A stretch of DNA of 64,000 nucleotides. Origin: Betaproteobacteria bacterium CG2_30_68_42. GTDB lineage: Bacteria; Pseudomonadota; Gammaproteobacteria; Burkholderiales; Rhodocyclaceae. The notes under the pieces were generated by a model that saw only the letters and a program-made list of their open reading frames with translations, was not told the origin of the DNA and did no database searches. The first letter of the stretch is position 1, and each line of letters begins with the position of its first letter. The stretch lies in the NCBI GenBank assembly GCA_001872285.1, contig MNXU01000002.1, positions 5,479 to 69,478 on the forward strand. Direction: 5' to 3'. The position numbers and the translations under genes were made by a program. This document shows positions 15,256 through 41,426 of the stretch, piece after piece.

Positions 15256-16190
15256 GCCGGCATGCCCGCTGACCGTCTCCATCCCCGTTTCGCCGCACCC
15301 GGCCTGGTCGAGGCGCTGGCCGACACGCCCGTGGTCCCCATCCACGGCCCGCGCTGGTGCTCGACGAAATCCAGCGCAGCCGCGATCTGCTCACCGCCGT
15401 CAAGCGCGCGGTCGATGCCGGGGCTGCGCGCGAACCGGGCCGTTTCGTGCTCACCGGTTCGGCCAATCTGCTGATGCTCGAGCGGATCTCGGAAACGCTG
15501 GCCGGGCGGGCGGTGTATGTCACGCTCTGGCCGTTTTCGCGGCGCGAGCGCCAGGGCCTCGGCCGCACCGGACCGTGGAGCGAACTGCTGGCGACGCCGT
15601 TTGCCGGCTGGCGCGCGATCCTTGCCGCCGATCCGGGCGGCGAGGAAGACTGGCGCGCGGCGGCGCGGCTGGGCGGCCTGCCGGTTCCCGCGCATACCCT
15701 GGCCGACGACGAGGCGCGCGCGCTGTGGTTTTCCGGCTATGTGCAGACCTATCTCGAGCGCGATCTCCAGGCGCTGCGGGCAGTGGAGAACCTGCCCGAT
15801 TTCCGCCGCCTGATGCGTGCCGCCTGCCTGCGCATCGGCGGCCTGCTCAACCAGACCGAGCTCTCGCGCGATGTCGGCATCGTGCAGCCGCAGGTGCACC
15901 GCTTCCTCAATCTGATGGAGGCCAGCTACCAGGCCATACGGCTGCAAGCCTATGCCGTCAACCGCACGCGCCGCCTCATCAAGGCGCCCAAGCTCTACTG
16001 GAGCGACACGGCGCTCGCGCTGCATCCTGCCGGCGAGCGCGAGCCGCGCGGCCCTCGCCTGGAAAACCTCGTGCTCATCGATCTCATGATCTGGCGCGAC
16101 GTGCAGGCGCGGCGGCCGGAAGTGCTGTATTGGCGCACCGCGAGCGGCCTCGAAGTCGACTTCGTCATCGAAACGCCGCAGCGGCTGCTG
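15256..16190 (+). pseudogene. Decayed AAA_14/DUF4143-type ATPase, Walker A deleted
   Basis: The N-terminus reads MPADRLHPRF and continues to TPVVPIHGPR, the lead-in to the P-loop of DUF4143-associated ATPases. At about 15353 the sequence jumps directly to LVLDEIQRSRDLL (Walker B) in another frame, so the Walker A loop and ~40 codons are missing. Downstream features of the family (GRFVLTGSANLLML, AGRAVYVTLWPFSRRE, the SGYVQTYLERDL region and EVDFVIE) are intact. At about 16190 similarity stops and a short hydrophobic stretch follows to the stop at 16328. It cannot bind ATP and is a pseudogene; an intact relative is at 28505-29665. Confidence 0.75.
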
Positions 16191-16329
16191 ATCAACCTGC
16201 TCACTGCCTCCGTCGTCGGCTTCTTTTCCTTCCTCTGCATCGCGACGCTGTTTTCGTCGCTGCTTTGCGTGGTTGCGGAGATTGTCCGGGGAAGAATCCG
16301 GCAGTTCTCCGGCAACAGGCAACGCTGAA

Positions 16330-27718: not shown

Positions 27719-28255
27719 ATGGGCAAGCTGAAAGTCGCCACCTGCTCGCTCGCCGGCTGCTTCGGCTGCCACATGTCGCTGCTCGACATCGACGAGAAGC
27801 TGTTCGATCTGCTCGAGCTGGTGGAGCTCGATCGCTCTCCGCTCACCGACATCAAGCACTGCGGGCCGTGCGAAATCGGGCTGGTCGAGGGCGGCGTGTG
27901 CAACGCCGAGAACGTGCATGTGCTGAAGGAGTTCCGCAGCAATTGCAGGACGCTGGTCGCGGTGGGCGCCTGCGCGATCACCGGCGGCATCCCGGCGATG
28001 CGCAACAACATCGACCTGTGGGACTGCTTCCAGGAGGTCTATCACTACGGCATCGGGCTGGAGGGCGGGCAGATTCCCAACGACCGCGAACTGCCGCTTC
28101 CCTTCGACAAGGTGCGCCCGCTGAACGAAGTGGTGCGCATCGACCATTTCCTGCCCGGCTGCCCGCCCTCCGCGGAAGCGATCTGGAAATTCCTCACCGA
28201 TCTCGCCGCCGGGCGCGAGCCGAGGCTCGACTACGAGATGCTGCACTATGACTGA
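27719..28255 (+). CDS. hoxY: NAD-reducing hydrogenase, small subunit HoxY
   Basis: HoxY (178 residues) carries the proximal [4Fe-4S] cluster between the NiFe site of HoxH and the diaphorase HoxFU. The cluster cysteines appear in SLAGCFGCHMSLLD, VGACAITGG and HFLPGCPPSAE; HCGPCE adds further cysteines. There is no Tat signal, as expected for a cytoplasmic enzyme. ATG 27719 follows GGAGGGTGA, which includes the hoxU stop. It should be directly followed by hoxH, but an ATPase gene on the opposite strand intervenes. Confidence 0.94.
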   Translation: MGKLKVATCSLAGCFGCHMSLLDIDEKLFDLLELVELDRSPLTDIKHCGPCEIGLVEGGVCNAENVHVLKEFRSNCRTLVAVGACAITGGIPAMRNNIDLWDCFQEVYHYGIGLEGGQIPNDRELPLPFDKVRPLNEVVRIDHFLPGCPPSAEAIWKFLTDLAAGREPRLDYEMLHYD

Positions 28256-28391
28256 GCGGCTGCGAAAGGGAGCCTGAACAGTCCGGGTTGAAGTGATGCG
28301 GGTGTCGCACGGGGGGTGAGTGGATTTCGAAACGGCGGCGCGATCGACGGCCTGACGCCCTGCTCGATGGCAATGGCCGTGCAAGCGACCA

Positions 28392-28449
28392 CCGCGCCGG
28401 CCGTCGTCGCGCCCGGCATCCCGAGCTTCCGGCAGGGGCCGCGCCATTT
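28392..28449 (+). repeat. 58-bp direct repeat, left copy
   Basis: This is identical over 58 bp to 29775-29832. Both copies are followed after ~20 bp by GGCCTGAAA, so the related region is a little longer. The pair flanks the ATPase gene inserted between hoxY and hoxH. The rest of the 249-bp gap after hoxY holds no recognisable gene. Confidence 0.9.
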
Positions 28450-28504
28450 ACCCGTCATGTTCCCGCGGATGGCCTGAAAAGTCGGCCCTGGCGGGACGGC
28501 CTCC

Positions 28505-29665
28505 TTACTTGCCGCGCACGAGCTCCGCCAGTCGGGGCAAAGGCAGTGCCTCGATGTCTTCCGCCAGCCGGTAACGCTCGTTTCCTGGATAGACGACGAA
28601 GCGCCGTTCCGGCTTCAGGTCGGCGCAGGCGGAATGAAAACCGCGCTCCGGCTTGGGCGTCAAACTCCGCTTCACCTCGATGGCCCAACAGCGGCCGTCC
28701 GGCCAGGAGAACAGAAGATCGATCTCCGCCCCGCCGCTGCTGCGGTAGAAGTGGGCTTGGGCCAGCGGATCGGCATTGGCCAGCAGATTCTCGATGACGA
28801 AACCTTCCCAACTGGCGCCCACCACCGGGTGGGCGAGCAGCGTGTCCTTGTCCGGAATCTGAAGCAGCGCATGCGTGAGCCCGCTGTCGCGGAGGAACAC
28901 CTTGGGCGACTTCACCAGTCGCTTGCCGAGATTGGCATGCCAGGGCGGCAGACGCCGCACCAACAGCAGATCGACCAAGAGGCCGAGATAGCTGCCGGCG
29001 GTCTTGACATCGACGCCCAGGTTGCGCGCGAACTGTGCCGTGTTGAGCAAGCCGCCCTGATGATGCGCCAGCATGGTCCAGAAACGTCGCAAGGTATCGG
29101 CGGCGATGCGCGGGCCGAACTGGGGGATGTCCCGCTCCAGATAACTGCGGATGAAATCCTGCCGCCAACGCAGGCTGCGTGCATCGTCGGGCGCCAGAAA
29201 GCTTTCAGGAAAGCCGCCGCGCAGCCAGAGCGCATCGAGCGATCGATCGCCGACTTCCAGGACGTGAAAAGGTGTCAGTTCCAGATAGGCGATGCGTCCG
29301 GCCAGGGTCTCGCCGGACTGTTTCAGCAGATCGGGCGAGGCCGAACCCAGCAGCAGGTAGAGGCCGCTCCGGCGTCCAGCGCGCCGGGCGCGGTCGATCA
29401 GTCCGCGCAGCACCGGGAACAGGCCCGGTGTGCGGTGTACCTCGTCGAGGATGACCAGGGTGTCGAGATGGTCGGGCAGATACAGTTCCGGCTGCGCCAG
29501 CTTGGCGCGGTCCTGCTCCGATTCCAGGTCGAGATAGACCGCCGGTCGCTCGCGAGCAATCTCCAGCGCCAGGGTCGTCTTGCCCGATTGGCGTGGCCCG
29601 AGCAGGGCCACGGCCGGCGAGTGATTCAGTGCGTCCAGCAATCGAGTGGCGAGATCGCGTTTCAT
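28505..29665 (-). CDS. AAA_14/DUF4143 family ATPase
   Basis: This 386-residue P-loop protein has Walker A LLGPRQSGKTTLALEIA (~residue 20) and Walker B LVILDEVHR, then LLGSASPDLLKQS, AYLELTPFHVLEVG, a winged-helix region (LLNTAQFARNLGVD), and the C-terminal DUF4143 nuclease-like fold ending AEIDLLF..WAIEVKR. The family is common in mobile and accessory regions; function is unproven. ATG 29665 (MKRDLATRLLD) starts the conserved part. It is the only minus-strand gene in the hydrogenase locus, separates hoxY from hoxH, and is flanked by a 58-bp direct repeat, indicating insertion. Confidence 0.88.
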   Translation of the reverse strand: MKRDLATRLLDALNHSPAVALLGPRQSGKTTLALEIARERPAVYLDLESEQDRAKLAQPELYLPDHLDTLVILDEVHRTPGLFPVLRGLIDRARRAGRRSGLYLLLGSASPDLLKQSGETLAGRIAYLELTPFHVLEVGDRSLDALWLRGGFPESFLAPDDARSLRWRQDFIRSYLERDIPQFGPRIAADTLRRFWTMLAHHQGGLLNTAQFARNLGVDVKTAGSYLGLLVDLLLVRRLPPWHANLGKRLVKSPKVFLRDSGLTHALLQIPDKDTLLAHPVVGASWEGFVIENLLANADPLAQAHFYRSSGGAEIDLLFSWPDGRCWAIEVKRSLTPKPERGFHSACADLKPERRFVVYPGNERYRLAEDIEALPLPRLAELVRGK

Positions 29666-29774
29666 GTGTGCAATTATGGAGTCTTGATACATGTTTTGCA
29701 ATGTTCGATGCCCTCCGCTTCCGTGCTGTTCGGCAAGCCCGGCCCGGCTTCACGCGGCTCGCTGCTCGAGGGCG

Positions 29775-29832
29775 CCGCGCCGGCCGTCGTCGCGCCCGGC
29801 ATCCCGAGCTTCCGGCAGGGGCCGCGCCATTT
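29775..29832 (+). repeat. 58-bp direct repeat, right copy
   Basis: This is the perfect copy of 28392-28449. The 460-bp stretch between the ATPase start and hoxH (29666-30125) contains this repeat and the palindromic element at 30034-30110; I see no gene in it. Confidence 0.9.
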
Positions 29833-30033
29833 CCTCGCGATACTCGGGCTGGTGGCCTGAAAGACCGGAGCTTGCGGGGGGTGGCGCTTTCCCGCCTTAT
29901 GACTCGCTGGACAAACGGTCTCCGACGGCCGATGGAATCGGCCATCTTCATGGGCGTTAAATTCCATGATCTCGATCAACACCTTCGACGGCAAGGCGAC
30001 GAATGCTGCTCTATGATTGAGATGAAACCACGT

Positions 30034-30110
30034 TCGACGCAAAGAGCGCGAAGACGCGAAGGACGCAAAACGGATCGAATGATCTGCGCGCTTTGCGTCC
30101 TCCGCGCTGG
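30034..30110. repeat. CGCAAAGAGCGCGAAG-type inverted repeat upstream of hoxH
   Basis: The left part ACGCAAAGAGCGCGAAGACG and the right part GCGCGCTTTGCGTCCTCCGC form an imperfect long hairpin. It is a different sequence version of the same design as the CCAAG and CACAGAG elements in this locus. It ends just before the hoxH ribosome site (GGAAGAGG). Confidence 0.7.
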
Positions 30111-30125
30111 AAGAGGTTGCCCTTG

Positions 30126-31592
30126 ATGCCTTTCCCTCTCGAAACCGCCGCCCATCCCGAGAACTCCAGACGCGTGGTCATCGAGCCGGTCTCCCGCGTC
30201 GAGGGCCACGGCAAGGTGACGATCCTGCTCGACGAGGGGAATCGCGTGCGCGAGGTGAGGCTGCACATCGTCGAGTTCCGCGGCTTCGAGAAGTTCATCC
30301 AGGGTCGGCCCTACTGGGAGGTGCCGGTGCTGGTGCAGCGGCTGTGCGGAATCTGCCCGGTGTCGCATCACCTCGCGGCCTCCAAGGCGCTCGACATCAT
30401 CGTCGGGGCGCGGCGATTGACGCCGTCGGCGCAGAAGCTTCGCCGGCTGATGCACCTGGGGCAGATCCTGCAATCGCATGCGCTGCATTTCTTCCACCTC
30501 GCCTCGCCCGACCTGCTGTTCGGCTTCGACGCCGATCCGGCAAGGCGCAACATCGCCGGGCTGGCGGCGGCGCACCCCGACATCGCCCGCAAGGGGGTCC
30601 TGCTGCGCAAGTACGGGCAGGAGATCATCCGCATGACCGCCGGCAAGCGCGTGCATGGCACCGGATCGGTGCCCGGCGGGGTGAACCGGAACCTATCGCG
30701 CGAGGAGCGCCGGCAACTGGCGGCGGGAATCGACGAGGTCATCGCCTGGAGCATGGAGGCGGTAGGGATGGTGAAGCGCCTGTTCGCGGAGAACGCCCGC
30801 GCGTGGGAAGGCTTCGGCCACTACCGGTCCGGTTTCCTCAGCCTGGTGCGCGCCGACGGAGCGCTCGACTTCTATGACGGCGGATTGCGCGCGAGCGATG
30901 CGGGGGGCGGCATCGTGTTCGATCACGCCGACTGCCAGGACTACCACGAACGCATCCACGAGGAAGTGAAGCCCTGGTCGTACATGAAGTTCCCATTCCT
31001 CGTCGCGCTGGGCGCGCAGGACGGCTGGTACCGGGTGGGCCCGCTCGCGCGCGTGGGCCGCTGCGACTTCCTCTCCACGCCGCTGGCGGAGGCCGAGCGC
31101 CTCGCGTTCAAGGAATTCGACGGCGGTGCGGCACTGCACGCACCGCTCGCCTATCACTGGTGCCGGATGATCGAGATGCTGCACGCGGCGGAGGGCATCC
31201 GCGAGCTGCTGGGCGACGACGACCTCTCGGGCACCGATCTCCTCGTGCGCGGCACCCGCGCGCTGCGCGGGGTCGGCGTCCTCGAGGCGCCGCGCGGGAC
31301 CCTGATCCACCACTACCGCATCAACGAGGACGAGCAGGTCGTCGGCGCCAACCTGATCGTCTCCACGACGCACAACAACCAGGCGATGAACGAGGCGGTG
31401 CGCCGGGTCGCGATGCGCTACCTCGACGGCCGCAAGCTGACGGAAGGCCTGCTCAATCACATCGAAGTCGCGATCCGCGCCTTCGACCCCTGCCTGTCCT
31501 GCGCCACGCATGCCTTGGGAAAGATGCCGCTCATGGCCGAGCTGGTCGACGCCGATGGCAGCGTGATCGACCGGCTGGCGAAGGACGGGTGA
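30126..31592 (+). CDS. hoxH: NAD-reducing hydrogenase, large subunit HoxH
   Basis: HoxH holds the NiFe active site of the soluble hydrogenase. The 488-residue product has the N-terminal metal motif RLCGICPVSHH (~residue 63) and the C-terminal DPCLSCATHALG. The 25-residue tail after the histidine would be removed by HoxW after nickel insertion. The start is ATG 30126 (MPFPLETAAHPEN) with a GGAAGAGG site; a longer in-frame extension lies in the repeat and is not native. Confidence 0.95.
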   Translation: MPFPLETAAHPENSRRVVIEPVSRVEGHGKVTILLDEGNRVREVRLHIVEFRGFEKFIQGRPYWEVPVLVQRLCGICPVSHHLAASKALDIIVGARRLTPSAQKLRRLMHLGQILQSHALHFFHLASPDLLFGFDADPARRNIAGLAAAHPDIARKGVLLRKYGQEIIRMTAGKRVHGTGSVPGGVNRNLSREERRQLAAGIDEVIAWSMEAVGMVKRLFAENARAWEGFGHYRSGFLSLVRADGALDFYDGGLRASDAGGGIVFDHADCQDYHERIHEEVKPWSYMKFPFLVALGAQDGWYRVGPLARVGRCDFLSTPLAEAERLAFKEFDGGAALHAPLAYHWCRMIEMLHAAEGIRELLGDDDLSGTDLLVRGTRALRGVGVLEAPRGTLIHHYRINEDEQVVGANLIVSTTHNNQAMNEAVRRVAMRYLDGRKLTEGLLNHIEVAIRAFDPCLSCATHALGKMPLMAELVDADGSVIDRLAKDG

Positions 31593-38292: not shown

Positions 38293-38360
38293 TTCACCAC
38301 ACAGACACAGAGGCACAGAGAAGAACAATGAAAAGCTTTTCTCTGTGCCTCTGTGGTGAA
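38293..38360. repeat. CACAGAGGCACAGAG inverted repeat, copy 1
   Basis: The arms TTCACCACACAGACACAGAG.. and CTCTGTGCCTCTGTGGTGAA form a near-perfect hairpin. It is the first of three copies in the hypD-hypE-hoxX interval, the others at 38460-38517 (left arm shortened) and 39591-39662. Confidence 0.85.
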
Positions 38361-38369
38361 AAAAGTCCT

Positions 38370-38462
38370 ATGCGAATTCTTTTCCTCACCCACAGCTTCA
38401 ACAGCCTCGCCCAGCGGCTCCATGTCGAGCTGGCGCGCCGCGGCCACGAGGTGTCGATCGAG
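38370..38462 (+). pseudogene. Duplicated 5' end of hoxX
   Basis: The 93 bp from ATG 38370 encode MRILFLTHSFNSLAQRLHVE followed by LARRGHEVSIE, and match the first 93 bp of the intact hoxX (39673) at 89 positions by my count. After codon 31 the sequence runs into a CACAGAG repeat and the frame closes about 15 codons later. The copy cannot encode a functional formyltransferase and reflects a duplication across hypE. Confidence 0.9.
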
Positions 38463-38535: not shown

Positions 38536-39582
38536 ATGACTATCAGAAAAGACTACATCCGTCCCGTCGACTTCAGGAACGGCCGCGTGGACATGACCCA
38601 TGGGAGCGGCGGGCGGGCGATGGCGCAACTGATCGAGGAGCTGTTCGTCGCGGCCTTCGACAACGAGTGGCTGGCCGCGCAGAACGACCACGCCCGCTTC
38701 GCGCTGCCGCCGGGGCGCGTGGTGATGGCGACCGACTCGCACGTGGTCTCGCCGCTGTTCTTCCCCGGCGGAGACATCGGCTGCCTGTCCGTGCACGGCA
38801 CGATCAATGACGTCGCCATGGCGGGAGCGAAGCCGCTCTACCTTTCCGCCGGCTTCATTCTCGAAGAGGGGTTTCCGCTCTCCGATCTCAGGCGCATCGT
38901 GGAGTCGATGGCCTGCGCCGCGCGCGAGGCCGGGGTGGCGATCGTCACCGGCGACACCAAGGTCGTCGAGCGCGGCAAAGGCGACGGCGTGTTCATCAAC
39001 ACCACCGGGGTCGGCGTCGTGCCCGAGGGCGTCGACATCTCCGGAGACCGGGCGCAGCCGGGCGACCGCATCCTGGTCTCCGGGATGCTGGGCGATCACG
39101 GCGTCGCGATCATGGCCGGCCGCGAAAAACTCGAGTTCGCCTCCGGCATCGTATCGGACACCGCCGCGCTGCACCGGCTGGTCGCGCGGATGGTCGCGCA
39201 GGTGCCGGACATCCACGTGCTGCGCGACCCGACCCGCGGGGGCCTCGCGACGACGCTCAACGAGATTGCCCGCCAGTCCGGGGTGGGGATGCTGATCGAG
39301 GAGAAGAAGCTGCCGGTGCGCAGCCAGGTCACCGCCGTCTGCGAATTTCTCGGCCTCGATCCGCTCTACGTCGCCAATGAGGGCAAGCTCGTGTGCATCT
39401 GCGCGCAAGAGCATGCGCAGCGCCTCCTGGAGGCGATGCGCGCCGATCCGCTCGGGCGCGATGCCGCGATCATCGGAGCCGTGCACGAGGATGCGCAGCA
39501 CTTCGTGCAGATGCGCACCGGCTTCGGCGGCCGCCGCATCGTCGACTGGCTCACCGGCGAGCAGTTACCCAGAATATGTTGA
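38536..39582 (+). CDS. hypE: Hydrogenase expression/formation protein HypE
   Basis: HypE (348 residues) dehydrates the thiocarboxamide on its C-terminal cysteine to the thiocyanate that donates CN. It has the PurM-like ATP-binding fold (MTHGSGGRAM, ATDSHVVSPLFFPGGDIG, GTINDVAMAGAKPLYLSAGF) and the invariant C-terminus PRIC. ATG 38536 (MTIRKDYIRPVDF) is the family start; the frame is open 14 codons further up only because of the repeat. Confidence 0.95.
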   Translation: MTIRKDYIRPVDFRNGRVDMTHGSGGRAMAQLIEELFVAAFDNEWLAAQNDHARFALPPGRVVMATDSHVVSPLFFPGGDIGCLSVHGTINDVAMAGAKPLYLSAGFILEEGFPLSDLRRIVESMACAAREAGVAIVTGDTKVVERGKGDGVFINTTGVGVVPEGVDISGDRAQPGDRILVSGMLGDHGVAIMAGREKLEFASGIVSDTAALHRLVARMVAQVPDIHVLRDPTRGGLATTLNEIARQSGVGMLIEEKKLPVRSQVTAVCEFLGLDPLYVANEGKLVCICAQEHAQRLLEAMRADPLGRDAAIIGAVHEDAQHFVQMRTGFGGRRIVDWLTGEQLPRIC

Positions 39583-39590
39583 AAACCCTT

Positions 39591-39662
39591 AACCACAGAG
39601 ACACAGAGGCACAGAGAACAACGAGAAAAACATTTCTCCGTGTCTCTGCGCCTCTGTGGTGA
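39591..39662. repeat. CACAGAGGCACAGAG inverted repeat, copy 3
   Basis: The arms AACCACAGAGACACAGAGGC.. and ..CTCTGCGCCTCTGTGGTG form a long hairpin filling the hypE-hoxX gap. The junction GTGGTGAAAAAAGT then ATGCGAATTC is shared with the truncated hoxX copy downstream of hypD. Confidence 0.85.
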
Positions 39663-39672
39663 AAAAAGTTTT

Positions 39673-41426
39673 ATGCGAATTCTTTTCCTCACCCACAGCT
39701 TCAACAGCCTCGCCCAGCGGCTCTATGTCGAGCTGTCGCGCCGCGGCCACGAGGTCTCCATCGAGTTCGACATCAACGACGCAGTCGCCCTGGAGGCCGT
39801 GGCGCTGTTTCGCCCGGATGCGATCGTCGCGCCCTTCCTCAAGCGCGCGATCCCCGAGGCGGTCTGGCGGCATTGCCCCTGCTTCGTCGTCCATCCTGGC
39901 ATTCCGGGCGATCGGGGGCCGTCCTCGCTCGACTGGGCGATCCTCGAGGGAGAGCGCGACTGGGGCGTCACCGTGCTGCAGGCGAATGCGGTACTGGACG
40001 GCGGTGAGGTCTGGGCGAGCCGCGCGTTCGCCATGCGCGAGGCGCGCAAGAGCAGCCTGTACCGCAACGAGGTGACGGAAGCCGCGGCCGCCGCCGTGCC
40101 GGAGGCGCTCGAGCGCTTCGAGCGCGGCGGCTTCGTGCCCGGGCGTTGCGAGCCGGGGATGCCCGGAATCCGCGCTCGCGCGCGGCCGCCCGTGCGCCAG
40201 GAGGACCGGCACATCGACTGGACGCGGGACGACACCCGCACCGTCCTGCGCAAGCTCGACGCCTCGGACGGATTCCCCGGCGTGCTCGACCGGATCGCGG
40301 GCATCGAATGCTTCCTGTTCGACGGCCGCCGCGAGGCGCGCCTGGGCGGCGCCGAACCCGGCGCGCTGCTGGCGCGGCGGCAGGGCGCGCTGTGCCGTGC
40401 GACCGTCGACGGCGCGGTCTGGATCGGGCACGCGAAGCGCCGCAGCCCGCAGCCTTCCTTCAAGCTCCCTGCCGCGCAGGCGTTGCCCGAGGCCGCCGCA
40501 CTCGTGCCCGAATCCGCGCCCGCGACGCTTCCCCGGCGCGACTCCGCCACCTGGCAGGATATCGGCTACGAGGAGGAGGCGGGCGTCGGTTACCTGCACT
40601 TCGACTTCTACAACGGCGCGATGTCGACCGGCGACTGCCTGCGCCTGCGCGATGCGTTTCTCGAAGCCGCGCGGCGCACGACCCGGGTGATCGTGCTGAC
40701 GGGCGGGACGGACTTCTGGTCGAACGGCATCCACCTGAACTGCATCGAGGCGGCCGAGAGCCCCGCCGACGAGTCGTGGGCGAACATCAATGCCATGGAC
40801 GACCTGTGCAAGGCCGTCCTCGAATGCGGCACGCAGCTCACGGTGGCCGCGATGTGCGGCAACGCCGGTGCGGGCGGGGTCTTCCTGGCGCTCGCCGCCG
40901 ACCGGGTGCTGGCGCGCAGCGGCATCGTCCTCAACCCGCATTACCGTGGCATGGGAAACCTGTACGGTTCGGAGTACTGGACCTACCTGCTTCCCGGGCG
41001 CGTGGGCGAGCAGCGCGCGCAGGAGATCACCCGGATGCGCCTGCCCATGGGCGCGCAGGAGGCCCGGCGGCTTGGGCTCGTCGACGATTGTTTCGGCGAG
41101 GGCGTGCCGGAGTTCCTCGCGCGGGTGCGCGCGCAGGCCATGGAACTCGCCGCACGGGAGGATTTCGATCGCCTGCTCGCGCTCAAGCTCGAAGCGCGGG
41201 AACGCGACGAGCGGCGCAAGCCGCTGGAGACGTATCGGGAGGAGGAGCTGGAACGCATGAGACTCGACTTCTACGGATTCGATCCGAGCTATCACGTTGC
41301 GCGCTACCACTTCGTGCATCGCGTACCGCACGCGTGGACGCCGCTGCACCTGGCGCCGCACCGGCGCAACCTGTGGCGCAACCAGGCGAGCCTCGCCGCG
41401 CGCTCGCACGCCGGGGAGAACAGCCG

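Follow-up and report, generated by a model that had tools for sequence, protein, structure and literature searches.

A candidate defence ATPase gene between hoxY and hoxH, bracketed by a direct repeat: a likely case of insertion with long target duplication

The hoxY–hoxH spacer and its direct repeat

The window, i.e. the whole 64-kb stretch of DNA analysed, carries the hydrogenase genes hoxY and hoxH separated by a spacer of 1870 bp, reckoned from the end of hoxY at 28255 to the start of hoxH at 30126. Within this spacer an ATPase gene lies between the two copies of a direct repeat, on the strand opposite to that of the hox genes. The features of the region are as follows.

27722..28255, plus strand: hoxY, hydrogenase small subunit, intact (Pfam Oxidored_q6; 84-88% identical to the nearest relatives)
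28324..28344, plus strand: what may be a remnant of a hoxH 5' end, ATTTCGAAAC..., resembling a relic in the relative G144/L050
28392..28449, plus strand: repeat copy 1, 58 identical bases, the likeness continuing to 28495
28478..28501, plus strand: copy of a 24-nt motif, AAAAGTCGGCCCTGGCGGGACGGC, in the right part of repeat copy 1, separated from the ATPase stop codon by 3 bp
28505..29665, minus strand: ATPase gene, 386 aa, PADLOC candidate PDC-S01 (ATG at 29665, stop at 28505)
29673..29701, minus strand: sigma-70-type promoter-like site, TTGCAA-N17-CATAAT, upstream of the ATPase gene
29775..29832, plus strand: repeat copy 2, 58 identical bases, the likeness continuing to 29878
29959..30021, plus strand: probable decayed second hoxY 3' end, matching the second tail of L050 in place and order
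30055..30106: hairpin with 18-nt arms (89%), immediately upstream of hoxH
30126..31592, plus strand: hoxH, hydrogenase large subunit (Pfam NiFeSe_Hases), 77-85% identical to that of G144, G096 and G010 over the part compared

The preliminary description of this locus, which reported a perfect 58-bp direct repeat around an ATPase gene between hoxY and hoxH, is confirmed, in that 28392-28449 and 29775-29832 agree at every base and have the same orientation on the plus strand. The 64-kb window has two exact direct repeats of at least 30 bp, of which this pair is the longer, and an exact inverted repeat of at least 30 bp was not found in it. The 58 bp are the core of a 104-bp repeat with 85% identity by ungapped extension; 30 of the 46 bp to the right of the core match between the copies, as do 11 of the 40 bp to its left. 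The differences are thus spread unevenly along the 104-bp repeat (0/58 versus 16/46; Fisher p = 4e-7).

The full 104-bp repeat was found at no further place in the 3.1-Mb genome, where a third match consists of 22 bp of the dispersed 24-nt motif only. Neither was a match present in 72,556 plasmid records, and a plasmid was set aside as the source of the repeat. Searches for the 58 bp in 60 relatives gave just short, weak matches, and derivation from a dispersed repeat was rejected, since the six matches inspected fall in or across the open frames of unrelated genes, including those for a symporter and S-adenosylhomocysteinase (named by eye), and were judged coincidental. A second ATPase gene with the same flanks, a search for which had been suggested in the preliminary description, was looked for in the genome and not found.

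Other parts of the spacer resemble pieces of the neighbouring genes. The score of 28324-28344 against the G144 relic was reached by none of 2000 dinucleotide shuffles; comparison with true hoxH starts was not significant (28/500 shuffles for L051, 13/500 for the window's own gene). For 29959-30021, none of 500 simple shuffles reached the observed score; with dinucleotide shuffles the counts were 5/2000 for the window's own hoxY tail, 270/2000 for that of L051, 38/2000 for the G144 relic and 33/2000 for the G144 gene, and it is because these are less clear than the simple shuffle that the hoxY-tail relic is graded as probable. Hairpins occur at the corresponding place before hoxH in G010, G144/L050 and L058 also. 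If the window shares these relic features with G144, as is probable, the spacer was widened in an ancestor common to both, with the ATPase gene and the repeats arriving later.

The ATPase gene is transcribed towards hoxY and away from hoxH. Between hoxY and hoxH no terminator was found (1.3 expected in 28200-30200), nor was a plus-strand sigma-70 promoter, and matches to a sigma-54 promoter for hoxH were at chance level (19 found, 26 expected). Given that there is neither a detected terminator nor a plus-strand sigma-70 site, the earlier suggestion that hoxH may need another promoter is unproven; it is possible that hoxH is transcribed by read-through or, otherwise, from an undetected promoter.

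The ATPase gene, its homologues and a dispersed motif

The encoded protein scores well above the Pfam cut-offs for AAA_14 (82 bits, cut-off 27) and DUF4143 (161 bits, cut-off 28), and seven PDC-S01 models of PADLOC match it (best E 3e-92); there was no match in NCBIfam at 0.001 and nothing better than E 0.056 among solved chains. Other ORFs overlap the gene, six of which were scanned without a Pfam match, and the sole Pfam-matching ORF of those scanned in the unit is the ATPase, which is neither a transposase nor an integrase. In an alignment of ten sequences, i.e. the window ATPase and nine homologues 46-85% identical to it, Walker A residues G28-K29-T30 and Walker B residues D74-E75 are invariant, as are E314, E330 and K332 of a PD-(D/E)XK-like motif identified by eye, in which D316 is nearly so. 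The dN/dS ratio between the window gene and its closest homologue is 0.15; purifying selection acts on the gene, which is intact. The promoter-like site ends 7 bp ahead of the start codon and is the only one of its type in 28200-30200 (0.3 expected). The intact motifs, purifying selection and nearby sigma-70-type site together give the appearance of an intact and self-driven gene. Its GC3 is 0.78, compared with 0.90-0.91 in hoxY and hoxH, which agrees with a foreign origin; among plasmid records 368 encode a protein relative of the ATPase, and 3 phage records encode distant ones (27-29% identity). Separately, a second DUF4143 gene is present at 15357-16328 of the window, with the N-terminal Walker A part apparently missing in that frame.

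Passages of one paper (PMC12988326) describe PDC-S01 as an ATPase fused to a member of the PD-(D/E)XK superfamily and rank it fourth in frequency among the defences of prokaryotes as a whole, with validation still pending for most candidates of the PDC kind. The window protein fits the PDC-S01 models and has both the ATPase and a PD-(D/E)XK-type tail, a likeness from which a role as a candidate anti-phage defence is inferred.

Homologues were found in 36 of 121 genomes of the family (E 1e-40) and, with a stricter threshold of 1e-90, in 32 of 300 genomes of the order, the window's own genome being included in both counts; the distribution is patchy. By blastn, the likeness between the window and the homologue loci has outer limits of 28511 (reached by L137) and 29705 (29703-29705 being reached by L138, L139 and L144), i.e. 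it spans the gene and about 40 bp upstream, and the repeats are absent from this common DNA. Direct repeats of at least 20 bp (E 1e-3) were looked for in 600-bp flanks, after removal of the loci with short flanks (8 of the 70 in the family, 1 of the 28 in the order); they bracket the gene at 9 of 62 family loci, including the window, and at 2 of 27 order loci; the corresponding figure for background genes of similar length is 2/300. With the window excluded, 10 of 88 homologues are bracketed versus 2/300 background genes (p = 1e-5), an excess that may in part reflect accessory surroundings, as the background genes came from four genomes and were unmatched in that respect.

In the window and at five homologue loci (L151, L156, L157, L249 and L344) both repeats are near the gene, one copy lying 3-63 bp past the 3' end of the protein match and the other 86-146 bp before its start; at L143, L144, L248, L262 and L363 repeats are present, but are not close on both sides. 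The excess is smaller for the close geometry, to which both background cases belong (5/88 homologues versus 2/300; p = 0.008). Its recurrence in five other copies suggests a unit of movement that can be tested. What is repeated at L151 is the end of lgt; at L157 it is that of a leuD-like gene, stop codon included, and at L344 the beginning of a DUF4145 gene. Candidate empty sites for the lgt, leuD and permease cases were rejected as not clean; the right flank of L157 was not found in the 1.5 kb after leuD of G010 or G144, and in G010 the lgt piece beside the ATPase gene seems to be an extra, shortened copy, with more lgt-end pieces nearby. In that genome, several lgt 3'-end pieces lie in the region G010:C1:2884071-2889609, which also has two AAA_14-type ATPases among or close to these pieces; another lgt copy lies away from them, at 105 kb. 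These pieces look like the result of repeated events at one kind of target.

The presence of a self-promoted gene between identical repeats, with a dispersed motif at one end, might suggest a transposon, a composite IS or an integron-like cassette with the 58-bp repeats as its ends. Such an element is, however, very unlikely: the repeats are direct and confined to a single locus in the genome, the overlapping ORFs tested have no Pfam match, and homologous genes elsewhere have other repeats or none. A folded recombination site was likewise rejected, the repeat with the motif folding no better than shuffles (z 0.05). A transposon or IS is recognised by terminal inverted repeats together with a transposase, or by several copies in the genome, and the unit has neither.

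With two positions left open and up to 3 mismatches, the pattern of the motif at the ATPase end of repeat copy 1, AAAAGTCGGCCCTGGCGGGACGGC, occurs at 5 places in the window's own 3.1-Mb genome (control 0). A close pattern is present in 39 of 61 family genomes, many of which have one or two copies, as does the reversed control in some. In five genomes copies number in the hundreds (G008, 766; G062, 684; G001, 588; G019, 335; G070, 227; control 0), with the strands represented alike in motif-rich genomes, e.g. 399/367 in G008. In 400-kb samples of G008 and G019 the motif is about 25 nt long and is present in 19 of 20 segments of each; 44 of 69 copies in G008 lie in crude ORFs covering 91% of the DNA (p = 7e-10), as do 41 of 52 copies in G019 in crude ORFs covering 89.5% (p = 0.02), and copies within genes favour certain frames. 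The form AAAAGTCGGYGCTGGCGRGACGGCG, of 24-25 nt, was observed inside and between genes of G008, G001, G062, G019 and G070 with genus dialects; the G010 dialect is AAAAGTCAGTCC.

The motif looks like a DNA uptake sequence. The strong over-representation on both strands that marks such sequences is found in relatives like G008 and not in the window's own genome. Paired inverted copies are common for neisserial DNA uptake sequences; paired inverted copies of the present motif within 100 bp were not seen. No literature linking a DNA uptake sequence with Rhodocyclaceae was found, and none is mentioned in the Sulfuritalea literature among the matches listed. The motif may be a sign that the ATPase end derives from a motif-rich relative. 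An unlikely, though more general, extension is that PDC-S01 genes are mobile units which spread via long target duplications, like restriction-modification genes, and do so within the family partly on uptake-sequence-tagged DNA, with the motif in the window marking the donor. If true, part of the traffic in the family would use a 24-25-nt uptake sequence with genus-level dialects.

Some further observations concern short repeated sequences in the window's genome, G000. The only other copy with the full 22-nt match (L003, G000:C36:49345) lies just upstream of a two-gene module resembling, by eye, a CopG/ParE-type toxin-antitoxin pair. A 16.5-kb contig (L130, G000:C50) has three motif copies within about 5 kb, with very few elsewhere in the genome, and would be either imported DNA or contamination. 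Words of the AATGGGGTCAGACACGATA type, which are perhaps tied to REP-like transposases, are also present: in a 427-kb sample (L296-L315 and the window) their 12-mers recur 11-16 times, with far below one expected.

The junction in relatives and a second bracketed gene

The junction was compared at 80 named hoxY loci, hoxH being placed beside hoxY in 72 of these and the other 8, where hoxH was unplaceable, being left out, and in a family set of 30 loci, 27 of them measurable (3 left out), drawn from the family genomes that have a hoxY match (80 of 121). The median gap between hoxY and hoxH is 15.5 bp in the 72 named loci and 11 bp in the 27 family loci, against the 1870 bp of the window. The preliminary description took hoxFUYH as normally uninterrupted, which has exceptions: 53 of the 72 named gaps are of 100 bp or less and 9 of 101-300 bp, but 10 exceed 300 bp. 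In the family set 1 of 27 gaps exceeds 300 bp, at a locus with the same sequence as L050 throughout 1200 bp.

The junction differs in state among the relatives nearest by HoxY (84-88%), all of which lack the ATPase gene there. In G096 and L051 hoxY abuts hoxH, and in G010 a hairpin spacer of 126 bp lies between the two. The gap is filled in G144 and L050, which do not differ over 1200 bp, and has, in order, a 234-aa gene, a scrap resembling the hoxH start, a second hoxY end (a 77-nt, 92% copy), a hairpin and then hoxH; the 234-aa protein has no Pfam family and is of membrane type by eye. No relative was found with an empty site and one 58-bp copy, as had been proposed for comparison; the empty sites have no part of the 58 bp. 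The relatives matched included no genome of the window's genus. That all relatives might have the same arrangement with diverged repeats, which would have argued against a recent insertion, is excluded for the relatives examined.

The ATPase gene could in principle be ancestral at the site, with the repeats arising in place by tandem duplication and deletion, events which can leave direct repeats. This is extremely improbable: no homologue at 1e-10 was found in the DNA around any of the 80 named hoxY loci, and the spacers of the nearest relatives are empty or otherwise filled.

Five of the 10 named loci with large gaps hold toxin-antitoxin domains (Pfam), as follows.

L068: HigB and an HTH protein
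L088: a MazE-like protein and PIN_3, the latter just above the cut-off
L097 and L128: PIN
L110: YoeB, with a partner gene lacking a match

There was no Pfam match for the L090 gap protein or for the partner gene in L110. The gap of L127, which with L096 and L123 was left out of the Pfam scan of large gaps, resembles that of L088. These inserts are like that in the window in the junction used and in being small, self-contained modules; they differ from it in that no hoxY-tail duplication is conspicuous around them, such duplication being conspicuous, among the large-gap loci, in L050 only. The hoxY–hoxH junction thus appears as a place in a core operon that is repeatedly used for landing by small addiction or candidate defence modules.

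The second exact direct repeat in the window (52 bp, at 38369 and 39672) lies within a longer one, which brackets another gene.

38340-38462 and 39643-39765: pair of hoxX 5'-end copies, 123 bp, 116 identical
38536-39582: hypE (named by eye and by Pfam AIRS domains)

The extra hoxX 5' end is located in the hypD–hypE spacer with hairpins alongside (hoxX was named by eye and by Pfam formyl transferase and enoyl-CoA hydratase domains). hypE is 81-82% identical in G010, G144 and G096, where it directly precedes hoxX as in the window, and in each of which one hoxX start was found in the searches made; by sequence comparison it is native, not foreign. The bracketing of a native gene in this way indicates that gene-end duplications of such size arise here without a foreign gene, so that repeats of the 58-bp type are not proof of mobility, and the step from repeat to mechanism is weakened. 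The insertion of the ATPase gene is itself unaffected, as it rests on the comparison with relatives.

The hypE case also bears on the possibility that the repeats are independent of the ATPase gene. Nearby sequences may be copied into spacers through ectopic recombination or template switching, with hairpins as possible sites; gene conversion would then keep part of a copy identical, and the ATPase gene would have arrived separately, between the copies or before them. The lineage-specific hoxX-start copy at native hypE, with its hairpins, is consistent with this, as are the hoxY-end and perhaps hoxH-start copies in the hoxY–hoxH spacer and the far greater divergence of the right 46 bp of the repeat than of the left 58. 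By contrast, no further copy of the full 104-bp repeat is present in the genome, the 60 relatives gave short matches only, and the copies are 13 bp and 110 bp away from the ATPase gene, much the same spacing as at L151, L156, L157, L249 and L344. Independent origin is possible, though rather unlikely; spacer copying with gene conversion is the main rival to crossover of incoming DNA.

Origin of the insertion and comparison with known systems

The absence of the ATPase gene at this site in relatives, its patchy distribution and the bracketing of its homologues above background argue that its insertion is lineage-specific. The locus had been described as the footprint of a mobilisation or recombination event that carried the ATPase. 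What stands of this is a lineage-specific insertion carrying the gene, for which the relatives without it, its patchiness and the excess of flanking repeats provide evidence; what does not is the use of the repeats as proof of mobility, given the hypE case.

On balance, it is probable that a PDC-S01 candidate gene with its own promoter was inserted into the hoxY–hoxH spacer, leaving a direct duplication of about 100 bp. The lineage would have acquired the gene together with its promoter, and insertion would have been into a spacer probably already widened by earlier duplications, with no recognisable transposase. Of the duplication that the event would have left, 58 bp are still identical. It could have arisen as the incoming DNA recombined with the chromosome, either through a Campbell-like crossover at a short common sequence or through illegitimate repair. 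A crossover between unlike resident and incoming copies sharing their first part would yield 58 identical positions followed by 46 that are not, and the observed 58/46 split seems to fit better with such a crossover of unlike copies than with a fresh 104-bp copy. The hydrogenase genes would then be a bystander site, at which insertion does little harm.

Literature joining any two of DUF4143, AAA_14 and toxin-antitoxin was not found, and the hoxY–ATPase–hoxH arrangement is described in no paper among the matches listed. Insertion with long target duplication was reportedly described for restriction-modification genes by Nobusato et al. in 2000. The arrangement in the window is like it in being a transposase-less unit with direct repeats of about 100 bp, the gene being absent in relatives. 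It differs in that the cargo is an AAA_14/DUF4143 protein, not a restriction-modification system, that the repeat is identical in part only, and that the empty relatives are without any 58-bp copy. Passages of PMC3874152, PMC3031569 and PMC1643837 describe, for insertion with long target duplication, long and variable direct repeats around restriction-modification genes without a transposase. The window most likely belongs to this kind of insertion, already described for restriction-modification genes, by way of recombination of incoming DNA; it is a good small example of the kind and not a new system.
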